DNA of 35,865 nucleotides from Lachnospiraceae bacterium. GTDB lineage: Bacteria > Bacillota > Clostridia > Lachnospirales > Lachnospiraceae. The notes beneath the pieces were generated by a model. That model saw nothing but the letters and a program-made list of their open reading frames with translations. It was not told the origin of the DNA and ran no database searches. Made by a program: the position numbers and the translations under genes. Of this stretch, positions 406-35,798 are shown piece after piece. The first letter of the stretch is position 1, and each line of letters starts with the position of its first letter. The stretch spans positions 1 to 35,865 of the forward strand of contig JAQXFO010000057.1 in assembly GCA_029005135.1 (NCBI GenBank), written 5' to 3'.

Positions 406-459
406 ATATTATTGTCACACATCATCTATAACAAGTTTATATACAGGAGGTTGCATACT

Positions 460-1668
460 ATGACAAAGATTGACATTGTCTCCGGCTTTCTCGGAGCAGG
501 CAAGACAACACTGATTAAAAAGCTTCTGGCCGGTCCCCTCAAGGGCCAGCAGATCGTCCTTATTGAAAATGAATTCGGCGAGATCGGTATCGACGGCGGC
601 TTTATGAAGGATGCCGGCATCGAGATCCGGGAAATGAATTCCGGCTGCATCTGCTGCTCCCTGGTGGGCGATTTCGCCACAGCCCTGAAAGAAGTGATCG
701 ATACCTATCATCCGCAGCGTATTGTGATCGAGCCATCCGGCGTCGGCAAACTGTCTGACGTCATCAAGGCCGTTCAGGACCTGGGCATTGACGGCGTGGA
801 GCTGAGCAGCTTCACCACCGTGGCCGATGTCAACAAGCTGAAGATGTATATTCAGAACTTCGGTGAATTCTACAACAATCAGATCCAGTATGCCCGGACC
901 ATCGTGCTCAGCCGTACCGATACACCGGAGGCCACTGACGAGAAGGTCAAGGCGGCTGTCGAACTTATTCGCAGCATTAACCCGGAATCGGTCATCATCA
1001 CCACTCCGATCGAGAAGCTGGATGCCGGCGTCATCATGCACGCCATCGAAAACGGCCGCTCCGATGAGGACGAACTCTTCGAGCAGATCAAGGAAGAAGT
1101 AGCCCACCACCATCACCATCATCACCACGATCACGACGGCGAGTGCTGCTGCGGCCATGACCACGACCACGATCACGAGCATCATCACCATGATCATGAC
1201 GGCGAATGCTGCTGCGGCCATGACCACGATCACGACCACGAGCATCATCATCACCATCACGATCACGACGGCGAGTGCTGCTGCGGCCATGACCACGATC
1301 ACGACCATGATCATGACCACGAGCAGCACCATCACGATCACGACGGCGAATGCTGCAGCGGCCATCATCACGATCACGACCATGATCATGATGCCGACGA
1401 GGTCTTCACCAGCTGGGGCAGTGAGACAGCCAGAAAGTACAGCCGCGATGAGATCGAAGGCATCATGAAGGCGCTGTCCGCCGACAAGGCTTACGGTACA
1501 GTCCTTCGCGCCAAGGGTATGGTCGACGGCAAGGACGGCTCATGGATCTATTTCGATATGGTGCCGGAAGAATACGAGGTCAGAAACGGTATGCCGCAGA
1601 TCACCGGTAAGTTCTGCGTGATCGGTGCTGATCTTGATGAGAAGAAGCTGGCAGAACTCTTTGCCTGA
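460..1668 (+). CDS. COG0523 (CobW/P47K family) GTPase with a His/Cys-rich metal-binding repeat array
   Basis: A 402-aa member of the G3E/COG0523 family of metallochaperone-like GTPases. The P-loop is GFLGAGKTT (residues 9-17), the metal-binding GCICC motif is at 62-66 (Cys63, Cys65, Cys66), and an IEPSG segment follows where the family has its switch region. Residues about 216-311 are an insertion of four near-identical HDHDGECC[CS]GH units separated by DH/H runs, with about 45 His and 11 Cys. The C-terminal ~90 residues look like the CobW C-terminal domain. AGGAGG at 445-450 lies 9 nt before this ATG; an upstream GTG at 388 sits inside the leader hairpin and was rejected. The next COG0523 gene starts 11 nt downstream. 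Zn, Ni or Co as cargo fits the ligands, but the metal and the client protein cannot be read from sequence. Confidence 0.93.
   Translation: MTKIDIVSGFLGAGKTTLIKKLLAGPLKGQQIVLIENEFGEIGIDGGFMKDAGIEIREMNSGCICCSLVGDFATALKEVIDTYHPQRIVIEPSGVGKLSDVIKAVQDLGIDGVELSSFTTVADVNKLKMYIQNFGEFYNNQIQYARTIVLSRTDTPEATDEKVKAAVELIRSINPESVIITTPIEKLDAGVIMHAIENGRSDEDELFEQIKEEVAHHHHHHHHDHDGECCCGHDHDHDHEHHHHDHDGECCCGHDHDHDHEHHHHHHDHDGECCCGHDHDHDHDHDHEQHHHDHDGECCSGHHHDHDHDHDADEVFTSWGSETARKYSRDEIEGIMKALSADKAYGTVLRAKGMVDGKDGSWIYFDMVPEEYEVRNGMPQITGKFCVIGADLDEKKLAELFA
1105..1395 (+). repeat. In-frame His/Cys-coding tandem repeats
   Basis: Four copies of a ~30-nt core (GATCAC/TGACGGCGA.., encoding DHDGECC[CS]GH) start at 1129, 1192, 1261 and 1336. 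The spacings are 63, 69 and 75 nt, each 6 nt longer than the last, so frame is kept and each interval gains two residues. The cores are near-identical at DNA level, including synonymous sites, which suggests recent duplication or gene conversion. The last core has a serine codon in place of the third cysteine. Confidence 0.9.
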
Positions 1669-1679
1669 AGGAGAGGACT

Positions 1680-2633
1680 ATGTTTGACTGCGATATTCCC
1701 GTTTACCTGATCACGGGATTTCTGGAAAGCGGCAAAACGACCTTTATGAACAATACCCTGACGCAGCCGTATTTTGCTATCCGCGGCCGTACGCTGGTGA
1801 TTGCCGGCGAACAGGGCGAAGTGGGCTACGATCTGAAGACGCTGAAGCGTCGTCACAACACGGATGTGGTTTTCATCGACAAGCCGGAGGATTTCACAGA
1901 GTCGGCCCTGAAGAATCTTGACAAGAAGTACAAGCCGGACCGTGTTATCATCGAATTCAACCCCCTCTGGAGTGTGAAAAAACTTTATGACATGAAGCTG
2001 CCGAGCTACTGGGATATGGCTCAGCACATCGTGATCATCGACGCGTCCTCCTTCCGGATCTACAGCCAGAATATGATGCCCCTGATCACGGAAATGATCG
2101 GCGGTGCCGATATGGTGGTGTTCAACCGCGCCGACGAAAAGCAGCCGCTGGCGAATTTCCGCCGCAGCATCAAGGTCTCCAACGGTGCGGCCCAGATCAT
2201 TTTCGAAGGCAGGGACGGTGAGCAGATCAACATTTTCCAGGACAGCATGCCTTTTGACCTCGAGGCACCGGTCATCGACATTGCCGATGAGGATTTCGGC
2301 ATCTGGTATGTGGATATGATGGATAATCTTGAACGTTATCTGGGAAAGACAGTCCATTTCCGCGGTCAGGTGCTGAAGAGCCGCAACAGGGATGCCGATT
2401 TCTTTGTGCCGGGCCGTCAGGCCATGACCTGCTGCGCCGAGGATATGCAGTTTATCGGATATGTCTGCCAATGGCCTCAGACGCCGCAGCTTGCGGAAGG
2501 CGAGTGGGTCGAGATCACCGGCACCATCCACGAGGAATTTTCGGTGGTCTACAAGGATAAGGGCCCTGTCATCACGGTGGAATCTTTGACAAAGGCAGAC
2601 AAACCCCAGTCGGAACTGGTATACTTTACTTGA
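1680..2633 (+). CDS. CobW-like GTPase lacking CxCC, with a C-terminal DUF1980-like domain
   Basis: A 317-aa protein whose N-terminal ~190 residues are COG0523-like. The P-loop is GFLESGKTTF (residues 13-22) and an IIEFNPLW segment replaces the usual E-P/T-S-G stretch. The CxCC motif is absent. From about residue 210 the protein changes to a domain with FFVPGRQAMTCCAED (Cys251-Cys252) and a W-VEITGTI segment. This resembles the C-terminal domain of the TIGR03943/DUF1980 (YcgQ-like) family; that is recognition by eye, not a search. It begins 11 nt after the first GTPase gene with a good AGGAGAGG site, so the two are almost certainly co-transcribed. A short GAGCC/GGCTC hairpin (2635-2653) follows the stop. 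The pair may work together in metal delivery, with the cysteine pair of the tail as a candidate site. Confidence 0.85.
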   Translation: MFDCDIPVYLITGFLESGKTTFMNNTLTQPYFAIRGRTLVIAGEQGEVGYDLKTLKRRHNTDVVFIDKPEDFTESALKNLDKKYKPDRVIIEFNPLWSVKKLYDMKLPSYWDMAQHIVIIDASSFRIYSQNMMPLITEMIGGADMVVFNRADEKQPLANFRRSIKVSNGAAQIIFEGRDGEQINIFQDSMPFDLEAPVIDIADEDFGIWYVDMMDNLERYLGKTVHFRGQVLKSRNRDADFFVPGRQAMTCCAEDMQFIGYVCQWPQTPQLAEGEWVEITGTIHEEFSVVYKDKGPVITVESLTKADKPQSELVYFT

Positions 2634-3744: not shown

Positions 3745-4371
3745 ATGTTTTGCAGTAATTGCGGTAAAGAACTGGCGGAAGGGACGCGCTTCTGTCCCAA
3801 CTGCGGTACACCGGTGACAAGGCCGGAGGGCAGTGCCTCGAATGCGCAGGCGAATCCCTTTGAACAGAACGATTATACCAGTGCGGGCGAGGCCGGCCGG
3901 AATTCCGGCAGTAATCCGTCGGGCGGCGGCTATCAGTCCGGCGACAGCTATCAGTCCGGTGACGGCTATCAGTCAGGCGGCTATCAGTATGACAACAGCT
4001 GGCAGAACGACAACCCGGTGATTCCGAACCGCAGCGTTGCGCTCTATATCGTCCTGACGATCATTACCTGCGGCCTCTTCGGTATCTACTGGCTGGTGGT
4101 GTTGGTCAACGATCTCAATACGGTCACGAATGAGCCGGGCGAGACAAGCGGTATCGCTGTCCTTCTTCTGGGCTGGGTTACCTGCAATATCTACAACATT
4201 TACTGGCTGTACAAGGCCGGCAACCGTCTGGATGCGCTGAAAGCCGCCAACGGGGAAGCCAGGGAGAACCGCGGTATCATTTATCTGATTCTCAGCCTCT
4301 TCGGTCTGAATCTGGTGGCCTGGGCCATGATCCAGAATGATCTCAACAAGCTGGCCGACGTGTCCTATTGA
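3745..4371 (+). CDS. Zinc-ribbon membrane protein with DUF4234 domain
   Basis: A 208-aa protein. The N-terminus is a zinc ribbon, CSNCGKELAEGTRFCPNCG, with two CxxC pairs. A low-complexity Gly/Ser/Gln/Tyr linker with YQSGD-type repeats covers about residues 45-90. It is followed by hydrophobic segments (about 95-115 and 130-150, and a third near 175-195) matching the DUF4234 layout, including the CGLFGIYW and CNIYNIYWLYK motifs. GGAGGAG precedes the ATG. The stop overlaps the next gene's ATG (ATGA), so the two are translationally coupled. The function is unknown. Such proteins are frequent in Lachnospiraceae, often beside a DUF2752 gene as here. Confidence 0.88.
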   Translation: MFCSNCGKELAEGTRFCPNCGTPVTRPEGSASNAQANPFEQNDYTSAGEAGRNSGSNPSGGGYQSGDSYQSGDGYQSGGYQYDNSWQNDNPVIPNRSVALYIVLTIITCGLFGIYWLVVLVNDLNTVTNEPGETSGIAVLLLGWVTCNIYNIYWLYKAGNRLDALKAANGEARENRGIIYLILSLFGLNLVAWAMIQNDLNKLADVSY

Positions 4372-33352: not shown

Positions 33353-34471
33353 ATGCATATGGCGGATGCGCTTCTGTCACCGCCGGTAGCTGGGGCGATG
33401 GCGGTGCTGTCAGCCGGAGCGGCCGCAGCGGCTCTCCGGGAATACCGGCGAGAGGACGGCACCGGCAGTCTGACGCCGGGAAGAAGGCTGCCGGAGATGG
33501 CGATTATGTCGGCACTGGTCTTTGCCGGTCAGATGATCAATTATACGATACCGGGGACGGGCTCCTCGGGCCATATCGGCGGCGGCTTCCTGCTGGCGGC
33601 GATACTCGGCCCGTCGGCGGGCTTTCTCAGTATGATCGCGGTGCTGACGATCCAGTGCCTTTTCTTCGCGGACGGCGGCCTGATGGCCCTGGGCGCGAAT
33701 ATCTGGAATATGGGCTTTTACGGCTGTTTTGCCGGTTATTACCTGATCTACCGGCCGCTGATGCGGCGGCGTTTTCCCGAGGGGTTAAAGCCGGAAGAGG
33801 CCGTTCACCGTGTGCGGCGGCGTCTGATGGCGGCCTCGGTCCTGGGCTGCGTGGTCTCGCTCCAGCTCGGTGCCTTTTCGGTGGTGCTGGAGACATCCCT
33901 TTCCGGGATCACGGCTCTGCCCTTCGGCGCCTTTGCGGCTCTGATGCAGCCGATCCATCTGGCCATCGGCCTGGTGGAGGGGGTGATCACCGGCACCGTG
34001 CTGGGCTTCCTCTACAGTGCCCGGCCCGAGCTGATCCGGGAGGATCCTCTGGCGTGCAGAGAACCGGGGCAGGCACAGGGAAAGACGCAGGGGCAGGCAC
34101 AGGTGCAGGGACAGCAGGCGCGGCATTCAAGACGCGCGGTGCTGGCGGTCCTTCTGTTTTCGGCCCTGGTGATCGGCGGCGGATTGTCCCTTGTGGCAAG
34201 CTCAGCGCCCGACGGTCTGGAATGGTCCCTCTTCGGCAGTGAGGAACGGGACAATATGGCCCTTGACGAGGATAACTTCGGCATCGACAGCGCCGCAGCC
34301 GACCGGGCGGCGGCACTGCAGGAGAAGACGGCCCTCATGCCGGATTACGCCTTTGCCTCGGATCCGGATAATCCGCTGGGCACGACGGCGGCGGGCCTTC
34401 TGGGCGTCCTTCTGGCCGCGGCAGCCGTCACCGGCATCGGCACCCTTGTCCGGCGCCGGCACAGGGTTTGA
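33353..34471 (+). CDS. cbiM: Cobalt/nickel ECF transporter substrate-binding component CbiM with fused PDGLE domain
   Basis: 372 aa. The mature start MHMADALL is the hallmark of CbiM/NikM, in which the N-terminal amine and His2 take part in metal coordination. AGGAGG is 8 nt upstream of ATG 33353. Hydrophobic helices run from about residue 10 to 225. A Gln/Gly-rich linker (about 232-258) then joins a C-terminal PDGLE domain (PDGLEWSLFG, near residue 285) flanked by two membrane helices. This is the CbiN/NikN-like part, so M and N functions are on one chain. The neighbours (metal-sensing regulator, CbiQ) support Co2+/Ni2+ import. The choice of metal is not decided by sequence. No cobalamin riboswitch was seen. 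Confidence 0.93.
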   Translation: MHMADALLSPPVAGAMAVLSAGAAAAALREYRREDGTGSLTPGRRLPEMAIMSALVFAGQMINYTIPGTGSSGHIGGGFLLAAILGPSAGFLSMIAVLTIQCLFFADGGLMALGANIWNMGFYGCFAGYYLIYRPLMRRRFPEGLKPEEAVHRVRRRLMAASVLGCVVSLQLGAFSVVLETSLSGITALPFGAFAALMQPIHLAIGLVEGVITGTVLGFLYSARPELIREDPLACREPGQAQGKTQGQAQVQGQQARHSRRAVLAVLLFSALVIGGGLSLVASSAPDGLEWSLFGSEERDNMALDEDNFGIDSAAADRAAALQEKTALMPDYAFASDPDNPLGTTAAGLLGVLLAAAAVTGIGTLVRRRHRV

Positions 34472-34497
34472 TTTCTCAGTCCCCGATGCTTTATAAT
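34468..34497 (+). promoter_or_regulatory. Internal promoter ahead of the CsoR-like regulator
   Basis: TTGATT (34468-34473, overlapping the cbiM stop), 18 nt, consensus TATAAT (34492-34497). It would express the regulator and cbiQ separately from cbiM. Confidence 0.6.
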
Positions 34498-34534
34498 AAG
34501 CTGTCGGAAGCAGAAAGACAGACGGAGAAAAGCG

Positions 34535-34972
34535 ATGCCGGATAACAGGACATTGAGCGGCGGCGAAGCGCCGGCGCAGGAGCACGAATATCGTCACGAG
34601 CGGATGCAGGCGCCTGGCAGCGGCCATGGGCACGGTCACGATCACAGTCATGATCAGAGTCACGATCATGAGGGTGGTCACGGCCATGATGGCGGCCACG
34701 GCCACGTTCACAGCCATACCCAGACACAGGCGGTGAAGAATCGCCTCGCCCGGGCAGCGGGCCACCTGGAAAAGGTACGCCGTATGGTGGACGAGGGAGC
34801 CGACTGTGCCGAGGTGCTGGTGCAGCTGGCGGCGGTGAGGGCGGCCCTCAACAACACGGCCAAGGTGATCCTTAAGGATCATATCGAGCACTGCGTCGTG
34901 GACGCGGCGGTCCATGGCGATCAGGCCGTCATCGACGATCTGAACAAAGCGATAGAGAGATTTCTGGAATGA
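34535..34972 (+). CDS. CsoR/RcnR-type metal-sensing repressor with a His-rich N-terminal tail
   Basis: 145 aa. The last ~80 residues are the all-helical DUF156 (CsoR/FrmR/RcnR) domain, starting KNRLARAAGHLEKV. Its metal ligands follow CsoR spacing: Cys91, His116 and Cys120 (C-x24-H-x3-C), with the segment KDHIEHC. The first ~65 residues are a Gly/His/Asp-rich tail with about 15 His, an extension beyond the usual ~90-aa family length. The C-H-C set is typical of Cu(I)-CsoR, but the gene sits inside a Co/Ni transporter operon, which favours Ni/Co sensing or metal buffering by the tail. AAAGCG precedes the ATG; GGAG is 9-12 nt upstream. Confidence 0.9.
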   Translation: MPDNRTLSGGEAPAQEHEYRHERMQAPGSGHGHGHDHSHDQSHDHEGGHGHDGGHGHVHSHTQTQAVKNRLARAAGHLEKVRRMVDEGADCAEVLVQLAAVRAALNNTAKVILKDHIEHCVVDAAVHGDQAVIDDLNKAIERFLE

Positions 34973-34980
34973 GAAAGACA

Positions 34981-35011
34981 GGGCAGGCGGCAGACATCCG
35001 GCTGCCCTTTT
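34981..35011 (+). terminator. Terminator-like hairpin between the regulator and cbiQ
   Basis: GGGCAG (34981-34986) and CTGCCC (35002-35007) with TTTT behind. It lies between two genes of one operon and could lower cbiQ expression relative to the upstream genes. Confidence 0.6.
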
Positions 35012-35021
35012 GACAGGTGAG

Positions 35022-35798
35022 ATGGATAAGACACGACGTGCCCAGAGGGATATGCGCACAATTGAAGACCTTCACCGGATCGCGTCGCCCGTCAAGGCGA
35101 TAGCGCCGGGACTTCGTCTCCTGATGGGCCTTTCCGTCATCCTGACGGCGGTGTCATTTCCGGCGTACGACCTGCTGGGACCGGCGGCGATGCTGCTGTT
35201 TCCCCTGACGGGCTTTGCGGTCTCGCTGATTCCGCCGGGGCTGTGCTTCTACCGCCTGAGGTATGTGATGCCTTTTGTGCTGGCGGTGGGGCTTTTCAAT
35301 CCGCTCTTTGACCGGCAGATCATCGCTGTTGTCGGTGGTATCGGCCTCAGCGGCGGCGTCATTTCCATGATCACCCTGATCCTCAAGGGCCTGGTGTGCC
35401 TGATGACGGGCTTCTGGATGAGCGCGGCAGTGAGCTGCGAGGAAATGGCCCGGGCCCTCACGGCGATCCGCTGTCCGCGAATTCTTGTCACGCTGTTGGT
35501 GCTGACGCGGCGGTACATCAGCGTGCTGGCGGAGGAGGCGTCGATCATGCAGGAGGCATATCGGCTCAGGGCCCCGGCACACAAGGGGATACATGTGAGC
35601 GCCTGGGGGTCATTTTTAGGACAGCTCATCCTACGCAGTCTTGACCGGGCGGAACGGCTCTACGAAAGCCTGCAGCTGCGGGGCTTTGACGGCAGCTTCC
35701 CGCCCCTTGATACGGACGGCAGGAAACGGTCTTTTTCGGCTCAGGCAGCGGGGATCGGCGTCATCGCGGCAGCGGCGGCGGTGAGATGGCTGTTCTGA
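35022..35798 (+). CDS. cbiQ: Cobalt/nickel ECF transporter transmembrane component CbiQ
   Basis: 258 aa. Hydrophobic segments lie near residues 30-45, 50-75, 80-100, 105-135 and at the C-terminus. The second half has the coupling-helix region of ECF T-components: an Ala-Leu-x-x-Ile-x-x-Pro segment (ALTAIRCPRIL) with TRRYISVLAEEASIMQEAYRLRA, and the C-terminal SLDRAERLYESLQLRGFDGSF, which resembles the second A-R/Q-R-G motif. The start is uncertain: 35022 has AGGTGA just upstream, and 35052 is also possible. With CbiM and an expected CbiO ATPase it would make the import complex. Confidence 0.85.
   Translation: MDKTRRAQRDMRTIEDLHRIASPVKAIAPGLRLLMGLSVILTAVSFPAYDLLGPAAMLLFPLTGFAVSLIPPGLCFYRLRYVMPFVLAVGLFNPLFDRQIIAVVGGIGLSGGVISMITLILKGLVCLMTGFWMSAAVSCEEMARALTAIRCPRILVTLLVLTRRYISVLAEEASIMQEAYRLRAPAHKGIHVSAWGSFLGQLILRSLDRAERLYESLQLRGFDGSFPPLDTDGRKRSFSAQAAGIGVIAAAAAVRWLF

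Follow-up and report, generated by a model that had tools for sequence, protein, structure and literature searches.

What does a long, repetitive stretch of histidine and cysteine do inside a GTPase of the COG0523 group, and which metal does it serve? This question is raised by a gene near the start of the window, by which is meant the whole stretch of DNA analysed, 35,865 nucleotides of contig JAQXFO010000057.1 from a Lachnospiraceae bacterium (assembly GCA_029005135.1). The reason for His-rich regions on COG0523 chaperones is only partly understood. The features of the gene are the following.

460..1668, plus strand: array-bearing COG0523 (G3E) GTPase, 402 aa (PF02492 and PF07683 matches; fold nearest to YjiA, 4ixm/1nij)
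475..996, plus strand: G domain, residues 6-179, with Walker A GFLGAGKTT (PF02492 match)
646..657, plus strand: CxCC metal motif, C63, C65 and C66 (sequence; 14/14 aligned orthologs)
1105..1389, plus strand: His/Asp/Glu/Cys array, residues 216-310, 95 aa (sequence, TRF, low pLDDT)
1408..1662, plus strand: CobW_C C-terminal domain, residues 317-401 (PF07683; folded lobe 3' of the array in the model)

Domain organization and family membership

The G domain is of the CobW/HypB/UreG P-loop type and matches cobW (PF02492) with 124.2 bits against a cut-off of 20.7, while CobW_C (PF07683) passes narrowly, with 23.3 bits against 22. The sequence GCICC stands at residues 62-66, and the motif is invariant in the 14 aligned orthologs. 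At the guanine motif, where NKxD is expected, residues 151-154 read SRTD (SRTQ in one relative, L013). E. coli YjiA has TKTD at the aligned place, so that SRTD is no bar to membership. Membership in COG0523 rests on the G domain, GCxCC and CobW_C, in line with the sequence-only reading, which placed four HDHDGECC[CS]GH cores inside a COG0523 GTPase frame. The cut-offs of the named NCBIfam subfamilies were not reached (CobW, 81.9 of 332.1 bits; ZigA, 65.7 of 600; CobW_rel_Se, 79 of 180; HypB, 26.0 of 121.2).

E. coli YjiA (4ixm, 1nij) comes out first among solved structures in both the sequence and the fold comparison. Whole-chain TM-scores in the fold search are low, 0.35 to 0.46, as expected for an arm plus two movable lobes. 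In the predicted structure a disordered segment separates two folded lobes, residues 217-315 having pLDDT below 50 and block means mostly around 29-36. An open reading frame opposite the array (415-1389, minus strand) was considered as a gene and is taken to be a mirror of the CAC/GAC codons.

The tandem array

The insert at 1105-1389 holds 45 His and 11 Cys, the numbers first estimated for it, out of 47 His and 15 Cys in the entire protein. The four cores start at 1126, 1189, 1258 and 1333, each 3 nt earlier than originally placed (1129, 1192, 1261 and 1336); the spacings of 63, 69 and 75 nt, or 21, 23 and 25 residues, are as reported. TRF detects the array with periods of 63 and 75. Four separate 11-mers at 10/11 identity occurred in none of 2000 shuffles of the insert, and the repeats are therefore no by-product of composition.

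The regular growth of the spacings had been read as a ladder in which every interval gains 6 nt, one DH or HH. This was rejected, since the net gain of two residues comes from unlike changes. Compared with unit 1, unit 2 has an extra HH in its His run, whereas unit 3 gained DHDH and lost HH (HHH to QHH), again a net change of two. The identity of the cores at synonymous sites, also claimed before, holds in part: cores 1 and 3 agree at all 33 nt, but core 2 differs from core 1 in three codons and core 4 in GAG to GAA and TGC to AGC. Codon agreement at matched array positions is 0.70 against 0.59 in synonymous-codon shuffles, with a z of 2.9 (2.87 on repeat) that is a description and no test, because matched pairs overlap. 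The codons of CCC cores agree at 0.84 within the window's genome and at 0.50 against other genomes, a gap to which genome codon usage contributes.

The commonest exactly repeated 10-mer of the array, HHHDHDGECC, has four copies and is found as well in Candidatus Blautia equi (L034), whose unit is nearly the same. Collapse of this array during assembly seems unlikely, as its longest exact repeat is 41 nt and the units have distinguishing codons.

Occurrence of the array gene

Two sets of relatives were assembled. The genus set comprises 42 same-genus genomes, including the window's own, and was searched with the whole protein. The patterns of a wide scan of named genomes included HHHHHHHH and HDHDHDHD, which biases it to His-rich genes; the scan is also incomplete. 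Together they gave at least 84 loci with a G domain at least 50% identical or a C domain, and at least 67 with both. Orthologs occur in 22 of the 42 genus genomes, and all 22 have an array or part of one. The named hosts, among the matches listed, belong to Lachnospiraceae, Oscillospiraceae, Erysipelotrichaceae, Selenomonadaceae and other Bacillota; the highest identity among the named-genome matches listed, 74% over residues 1-206, is to Candidatus Pullilachnospira (L036), which points to a Lachnospiraceae genus as the probable source of the window.

A second GTPase fused to DUF1980

The array gene is followed at a distance of 11 nt past its stop codon by a partner gene with these features.

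1680..2633, plus strand: partner, G3E GTPase without CxCC fused to DUF1980_C (cobW 50.8 bits, DUF1980_C 92.7 bits)
2262..2624, plus strand: DUF1980_C domain of the partner, residues 195-315 (PF21537; probable OB-like beta barrel)
2430..2444, plus strand: CCxxD of the partner, C251, C252 and D255 (72/72 partner proteins; 46/46 in A4)

The DUF1980_C match is well above its cut-off of 25.9. TIGR03943 is matched with 89.0 bits against a cut-off of 88.8, and over model positions 108-219 of 221 only. The partner thus shares the C-terminal domain of the TIGR03943/DUF1980 family (YcgQ) and clears the family cut-off by 0.2 bits; unlike that family, its front is a G3E GTPase. The usual neighbour of DUF1980 is a membrane permease of the ArsP_1 family. 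No match to ArsP_1 (PF03773) was obtained in the window's genome, and in the genus set ArsP_1 has no association with the array gene (4/22 genomes with it, 5/20 without).

A relative of the partner lies 3' of the array gene at 73 of the 84 listed loci, a count that excludes L023, L025 and L058, where the partner query matched only the array gene's own G domain. At the other 11 the last domain is at most 192 nt from a contig edge. In the genus set, 19 of the 42 genomes have a DUF1980_C match above the cut-off, and each of them belongs to the 22 with the array gene; of the remaining three, two have contigs that end in the array (G002, G027) and one has a partial partner at a contig edge (G040). 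Besides the partner, no other common neighbour family was found among the 25 commonest Pfam families shown per side.

Across 72 partner proteins, CxCC is absent from the first 120 residues, and the P-loop residues G13, G18 and K19 are present in every one. The partner model is confident (mean pLDDT 90). Using Foldseek, its front was matched to G3E and SRP-type GTPases, with weaker matches of the protein to MCM, CST, aspartyl-tRNA synthetase and a single-stranded-DNA-binding protein. These four share the OB fold, and by these matches DUF1980_C would be an OB-like barrel. A second DUF1980_C match in the window's genome (G000:C46:34038-34388) has 20.3 bits, below the cut-off, and lies in a 496-residue open frame.

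A putative metal store and the choice of metal

The closest functional precedent is CobW2 of Cupriavidus metallidurans, a protein with an internal His-rich region. As far as the available text of that study describes it, CobW2 takes up about 7 Zn(II) in one of its two conformations, and a role as zinc store is assumed for it (PMC11340326). Like the window's protein, CobW2 is a COG0523 GTPase with a large internal region that is His-rich and predicted to be disordered, a likeness drawn by description rather than alignment. The internal position and predicted disorder match this precedent and make the metal store first suggested for the array plausible. The reading we favour, with moderate confidence, is a metal-buffering arm on a COG0523 chaperone that has a dedicated partner; Zn(II) is the likeliest metal. 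The differences from CobW2 as described are that the window's region consists of tandem His/Cys units that vary between species, that a gene for a CxCC-less GTPase-DUF1980 protein accompanies it, and that the storage role is putative here.

Other His-rich GTPases place the array in context. Haas et al. reported a His-rich region in about 40% of 887 COG0523 proteins, commonly near the C-terminus, and the longest stretch named in the portion of the paper available has 29 His (Haas et al., 2009, PMC2770081), against 45 His and 11 Cys here. Tandem His/Cys units do not appear in that portion, and the terms DUF1980 and TIGR03943 are absent from its main text. According to the same source, the His stretch of HypB is N-terminal and binds 18 Ni per dimer (PMC2770081). 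HypB and UreG with their poly-His resemble the window's protein as G3E GTPases with a His-rich putative metal store, but the window's array is internal and its protein far under the HypB cut-off. SlyD, with its His/Cys-rich tail, is counted with them among the known systems closest to it. Compared with the known His-rich COG0523 proteins, the interesting parts are the fast-changing tandem His/Cys arm and the dedicated partner. Among the literature matches listed, none deals with a pairing of DUF1980 and COG0523 or with COG0523 arrays of repeated His/Cys units; the main family review lies outside this coverage, and the pair may be described there.

Zn(II) is the most likely metal, at about even confidence, and Co or Ni comes next with an appreciable chance. 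The preference for Zn follows from the measured precedent in CobW2, as far as that source goes, and from His/Cys chemistry. What speaks against it is the distribution of transport genes in the genus set. Among the 22 genomes that have the array gene, 15 carry CbiM, a component of Co/Ni ECF transporters, whereas 5 of the 20 lacking the gene do so; the p of 0.007 belongs to one test out of six and is uncorrected for kinship or genome completeness. ZnuA has no association (3/22 and 5/20).

The association with CbiM is weak and the sole one found for a metal gene. It is an argument for a Co or Ni delivery factor, in which the arm would select and concentrate Co or Ni for a client enzyme and form no general Zn store. 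The presence of CbiM and of a CsoR/RcnR-family repressor with a His-rich N-terminus on the window's contig fits such a factor, as does the binding of Ni by the poly-His stretches of HypB (PMC2770081, as far as available). But HypB itself is unassociated (12/22 genomes with the array gene, 11/20 without), the CbiM figures bear the limits given above, and Co/Ni genes are no common neighbours of the pair among the 25 commonest families per side. We consider a dedicated Co or Ni delivery factor possible but unlikely. The CsoR family likewise has no association with the array gene when the 22 and 20 genus genomes are compared.

On either side, the 25 commonest families (out of 112 upstream and 153 downstream) include no metal gene that recurs next to the pair; the commonest family has four members in each set. 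These tallies come from Pfam on 95 upstream ORFs (of 109; 14 short or overlapping ones left out by hand) and 101 downstream ORFs (of 117; 16 left out likewise). The ORFs were chosen by length, which may miss real genes: in L049 a repressor gene was hidden by a spurious ORF on the opposite strand.

Several metal-related genes were observed nearby or elsewhere. At 33353-35798 of the window, CbiM (with a PDGLE domain), the CsoR/RcnR-family repressor and CbiQ stand in a row, and the His-rich N-terminal extension of the repressor has 15 His in the stretch shown. Proteins of this repressor family were found by motif at 8 of 30 loci, and four of the eight have a His-rich extension (L136, L137, L140, L142). 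In G002 (contig C394; L136/L017) a repressor gene of this family precedes the array gene by about 1.3 kb in the same orientation, with an apparent tyrosyl-tRNA synthetase end between them, judged by eye; in L049 one precedes it by at most 0.3 kb, again in the same orientation. The window's genome has tandem HypB-type genes at G000:C85:31366-32666 (L003, L004), both above the HypB cut-off, and such tandem pairs are seen in G007, G011, G030 and others as well.

The leader of the array gene was considered as a regulatory RNA or attenuator on account of a hairpin and T run at about 380-403. This was rejected, as such a hairpin is found in 11 of 73 upstream regions, and in differing places. At gathering cut-offs, Rfam gave two tRNAs only in the whole window, and inspection of seven upstream regions by eye revealed no common operator. 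Downstream, the protein encoded at 3745-4371 starts with a double-CxxC zinc-ribbon-like motif, and its gene contains an 18-nt tandem repeat of the GGYQSGDSYQSG type at 3914-3988.

Variation of the array among relatives

Between relatives the array differs in repeats and length. Most residues of the arrays are His, Asp, Glu or Cys, each of which could be a metal ligand. Among the 67 listed orthologs with both domains, the insert region has 18 or more His in 66 and contains Cys in 51 (at least 8 Cys in 16); the arrays reach up to 69 His and 12 Cys, in L055. The exception is L045, with 8 His and 4 Cys; this vestigial array may reflect loss or assembly collapse. All 67 are in frame and stop-free. 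The repeated units differ, being HDHEEHEHH in G028, DHDDDEDEEHGHEHHHH in G033, ECCCGHHHH in L041, and built on CDDPxCxC in L055 and L069.

An exactly repeated 10-mer is present in 57 of 82 listed arrays (L056 and L081 dropped). Strictly species-specific repeats were rejected: the commonest repeated 10-mer is private in 20 of the 57 and is found elsewhere in 37, and G028 and G032 have one repeated 10-mer in common. From their sequences, the arrays look like rearrangements drawn from a shared vocabulary. The CCC cluster, which the sequence-only reading had singled out as an addition of this array, is indeed there but is not peculiar to this genome, as the Cys counts above indicate, and CCCGH is found in two genus relatives, G002 and G015. 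Both group with the window's gene in the G-domain tree (84% SH-aLRT), and the motif is therefore older than the present copies. The array design is more widespread and more orderly than had been supposed.

Change can be quick. In G021 and G025, the G domains are 98% identical, while the arrays have 58 and 48 aa and differing repeats; in L069 and L072, the G domains are identical and the arrays, of 112 and 110 aa, differ in their poly-Asp and poly-His runs. Codon matches between units reach a z of at least 2 in 31 of the 57 listed arrays tested (highest 10.3, in L055), stay below 2 in 26, and are below shuffles in 8. Such near-identical proteins with different arrays, together with the codon matches above shuffles in the window's own array, bear out the earlier suggestion of a fast-changing array, and the proposed comparison of close relatives revealed differing lengths and repeats among the 22 genus orthologs in place of one fixed four-unit array.

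The ligand class is nonetheless partly inherited, since the Cys class of the array changes 23 times on a tree built without the array, compared with 36.0 times in shuffles (as low in 0 of 200). This tree has 63 rows, one of them a distant proteobacterial row (L081), and omits genes without a C domain, including G002 and G015. The CCC label, which lumps CCC of differing contexts, falls on 7 rows with 7 changes in this tree and on 9 rows with 7 changes in the G-domain tree, where truncated genes are included.

Assembly limits bear on array size. Where a contig of a relative ends inside the gene, the end falls within the array in 14 of 16 cases (7/8 in the genus set, 7/8 in the wider set; counted by hand, without L056, a repeat of the G010 contig, and without the distant L081). 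If the array is taken as 25% of the gene, the probability of this is about 3e-7. These arrays thus also break assemblies, array sizes of relatives are biased to resolvable ones, and long ones are probably too few in the sample. In G003 a run of N stands inside the array, and in L017 (G002) the array frame shifts ahead of the contig end, through either faulty assembly of the contig edge or a genuine change.

Fast change is also what would be seen in a largely neutral, low-complexity linker, whose CAC/CAT-GAC/GAT runs slip and where any such flexible spacer is tolerated. The rapid change of repeats and length, the altered poly-Asp and poly-His runs between near-identical proteins and the 23 changes of ligand class, though fewer than in shuffles, are consistent with such a linker. 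Against it stand the intact reading frame, the dominance of possible metal ligands and the 18 or more His in 66 of 67 orthologs. The wide scan favours His-rich genes, but the genus set comes from a whole-protein search and has an array in 22 of 22. A neutral linker is on balance improbable.

A working model for the arm and its partner

The arm resembles a metal store that evolves rapidly, and the metal-buffering reading can be extended to a mechanism. The gene would encode a COG0523 metallochaperone driven by GTP, whose flexible tandem arm may load several metal ions loosely, as a store, buffer or antenna, and hold them close to the CxCC of the G domain, feeding a high-affinity site that is switched by GTP. 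In CobW, according to the text available, GTP makes a tight metal site, likely at CxCC (PMC7689651, PMC7895991). The metal would probably be handed on with or through the partner, a GTPase minus CxCC with an invariant CCxxD in DUF1980, which may receive the metal or help its release. The arm is seemingly selected for composition and presence and not for its exact sequence, so that slippage and unequal exchange may keep altering its length, repeats and ligand set. An interaction or sensing element, in which metal orders the arm and switches docking to the partner or clients, would suit the disordered arm of the model, the two conformations described for Cupriavidus CobW2 in the available text (PMC11340326) and the regular pairing with the partner, but the unconserved sequence and length of the array are unexpected of a docking surface and make it very improbable.

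Implications

A bolder reading, to which we give only a small chance, is that of an evolvable dial. A fixed two-GTPase machine would carry a tandem arm that is repeatedly rebuilt across gut Firmicutes from a small vocabulary of ligand words, resetting metal capacity and choice, and the two GTPases would form a GTP-locked donor-acceptor heterodimer. If this were true, the CxCC GTPase would be the donor and CCxxD in the OB-like domain the acceptor, the catalytic parts being kept while capacity and choice are reset by repeat turnover and not by point mutation. The arm classes on such a dial would be pure His/Asp/Glu and His/Cys with CCC, CDDPxCxC or CxCGC. Transfer from donor to acceptor would then be of a kind not described for COG0523 in the portion of the literature covered.

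For the metal-buffering arm on its chaperone, the clade offers a natural comparison. It varies the arm and leaves the chaperone nearly constant, so that capacity, metal choice and the need for an arm can be compared between close relatives, as in the pairs G021/G025 and L069/L072, the latter with its identical G domains. The pairing with a CxCC-less GTPase, in turn, gives the little-studied DUF1980 a concrete, putative role in metal hand-over.
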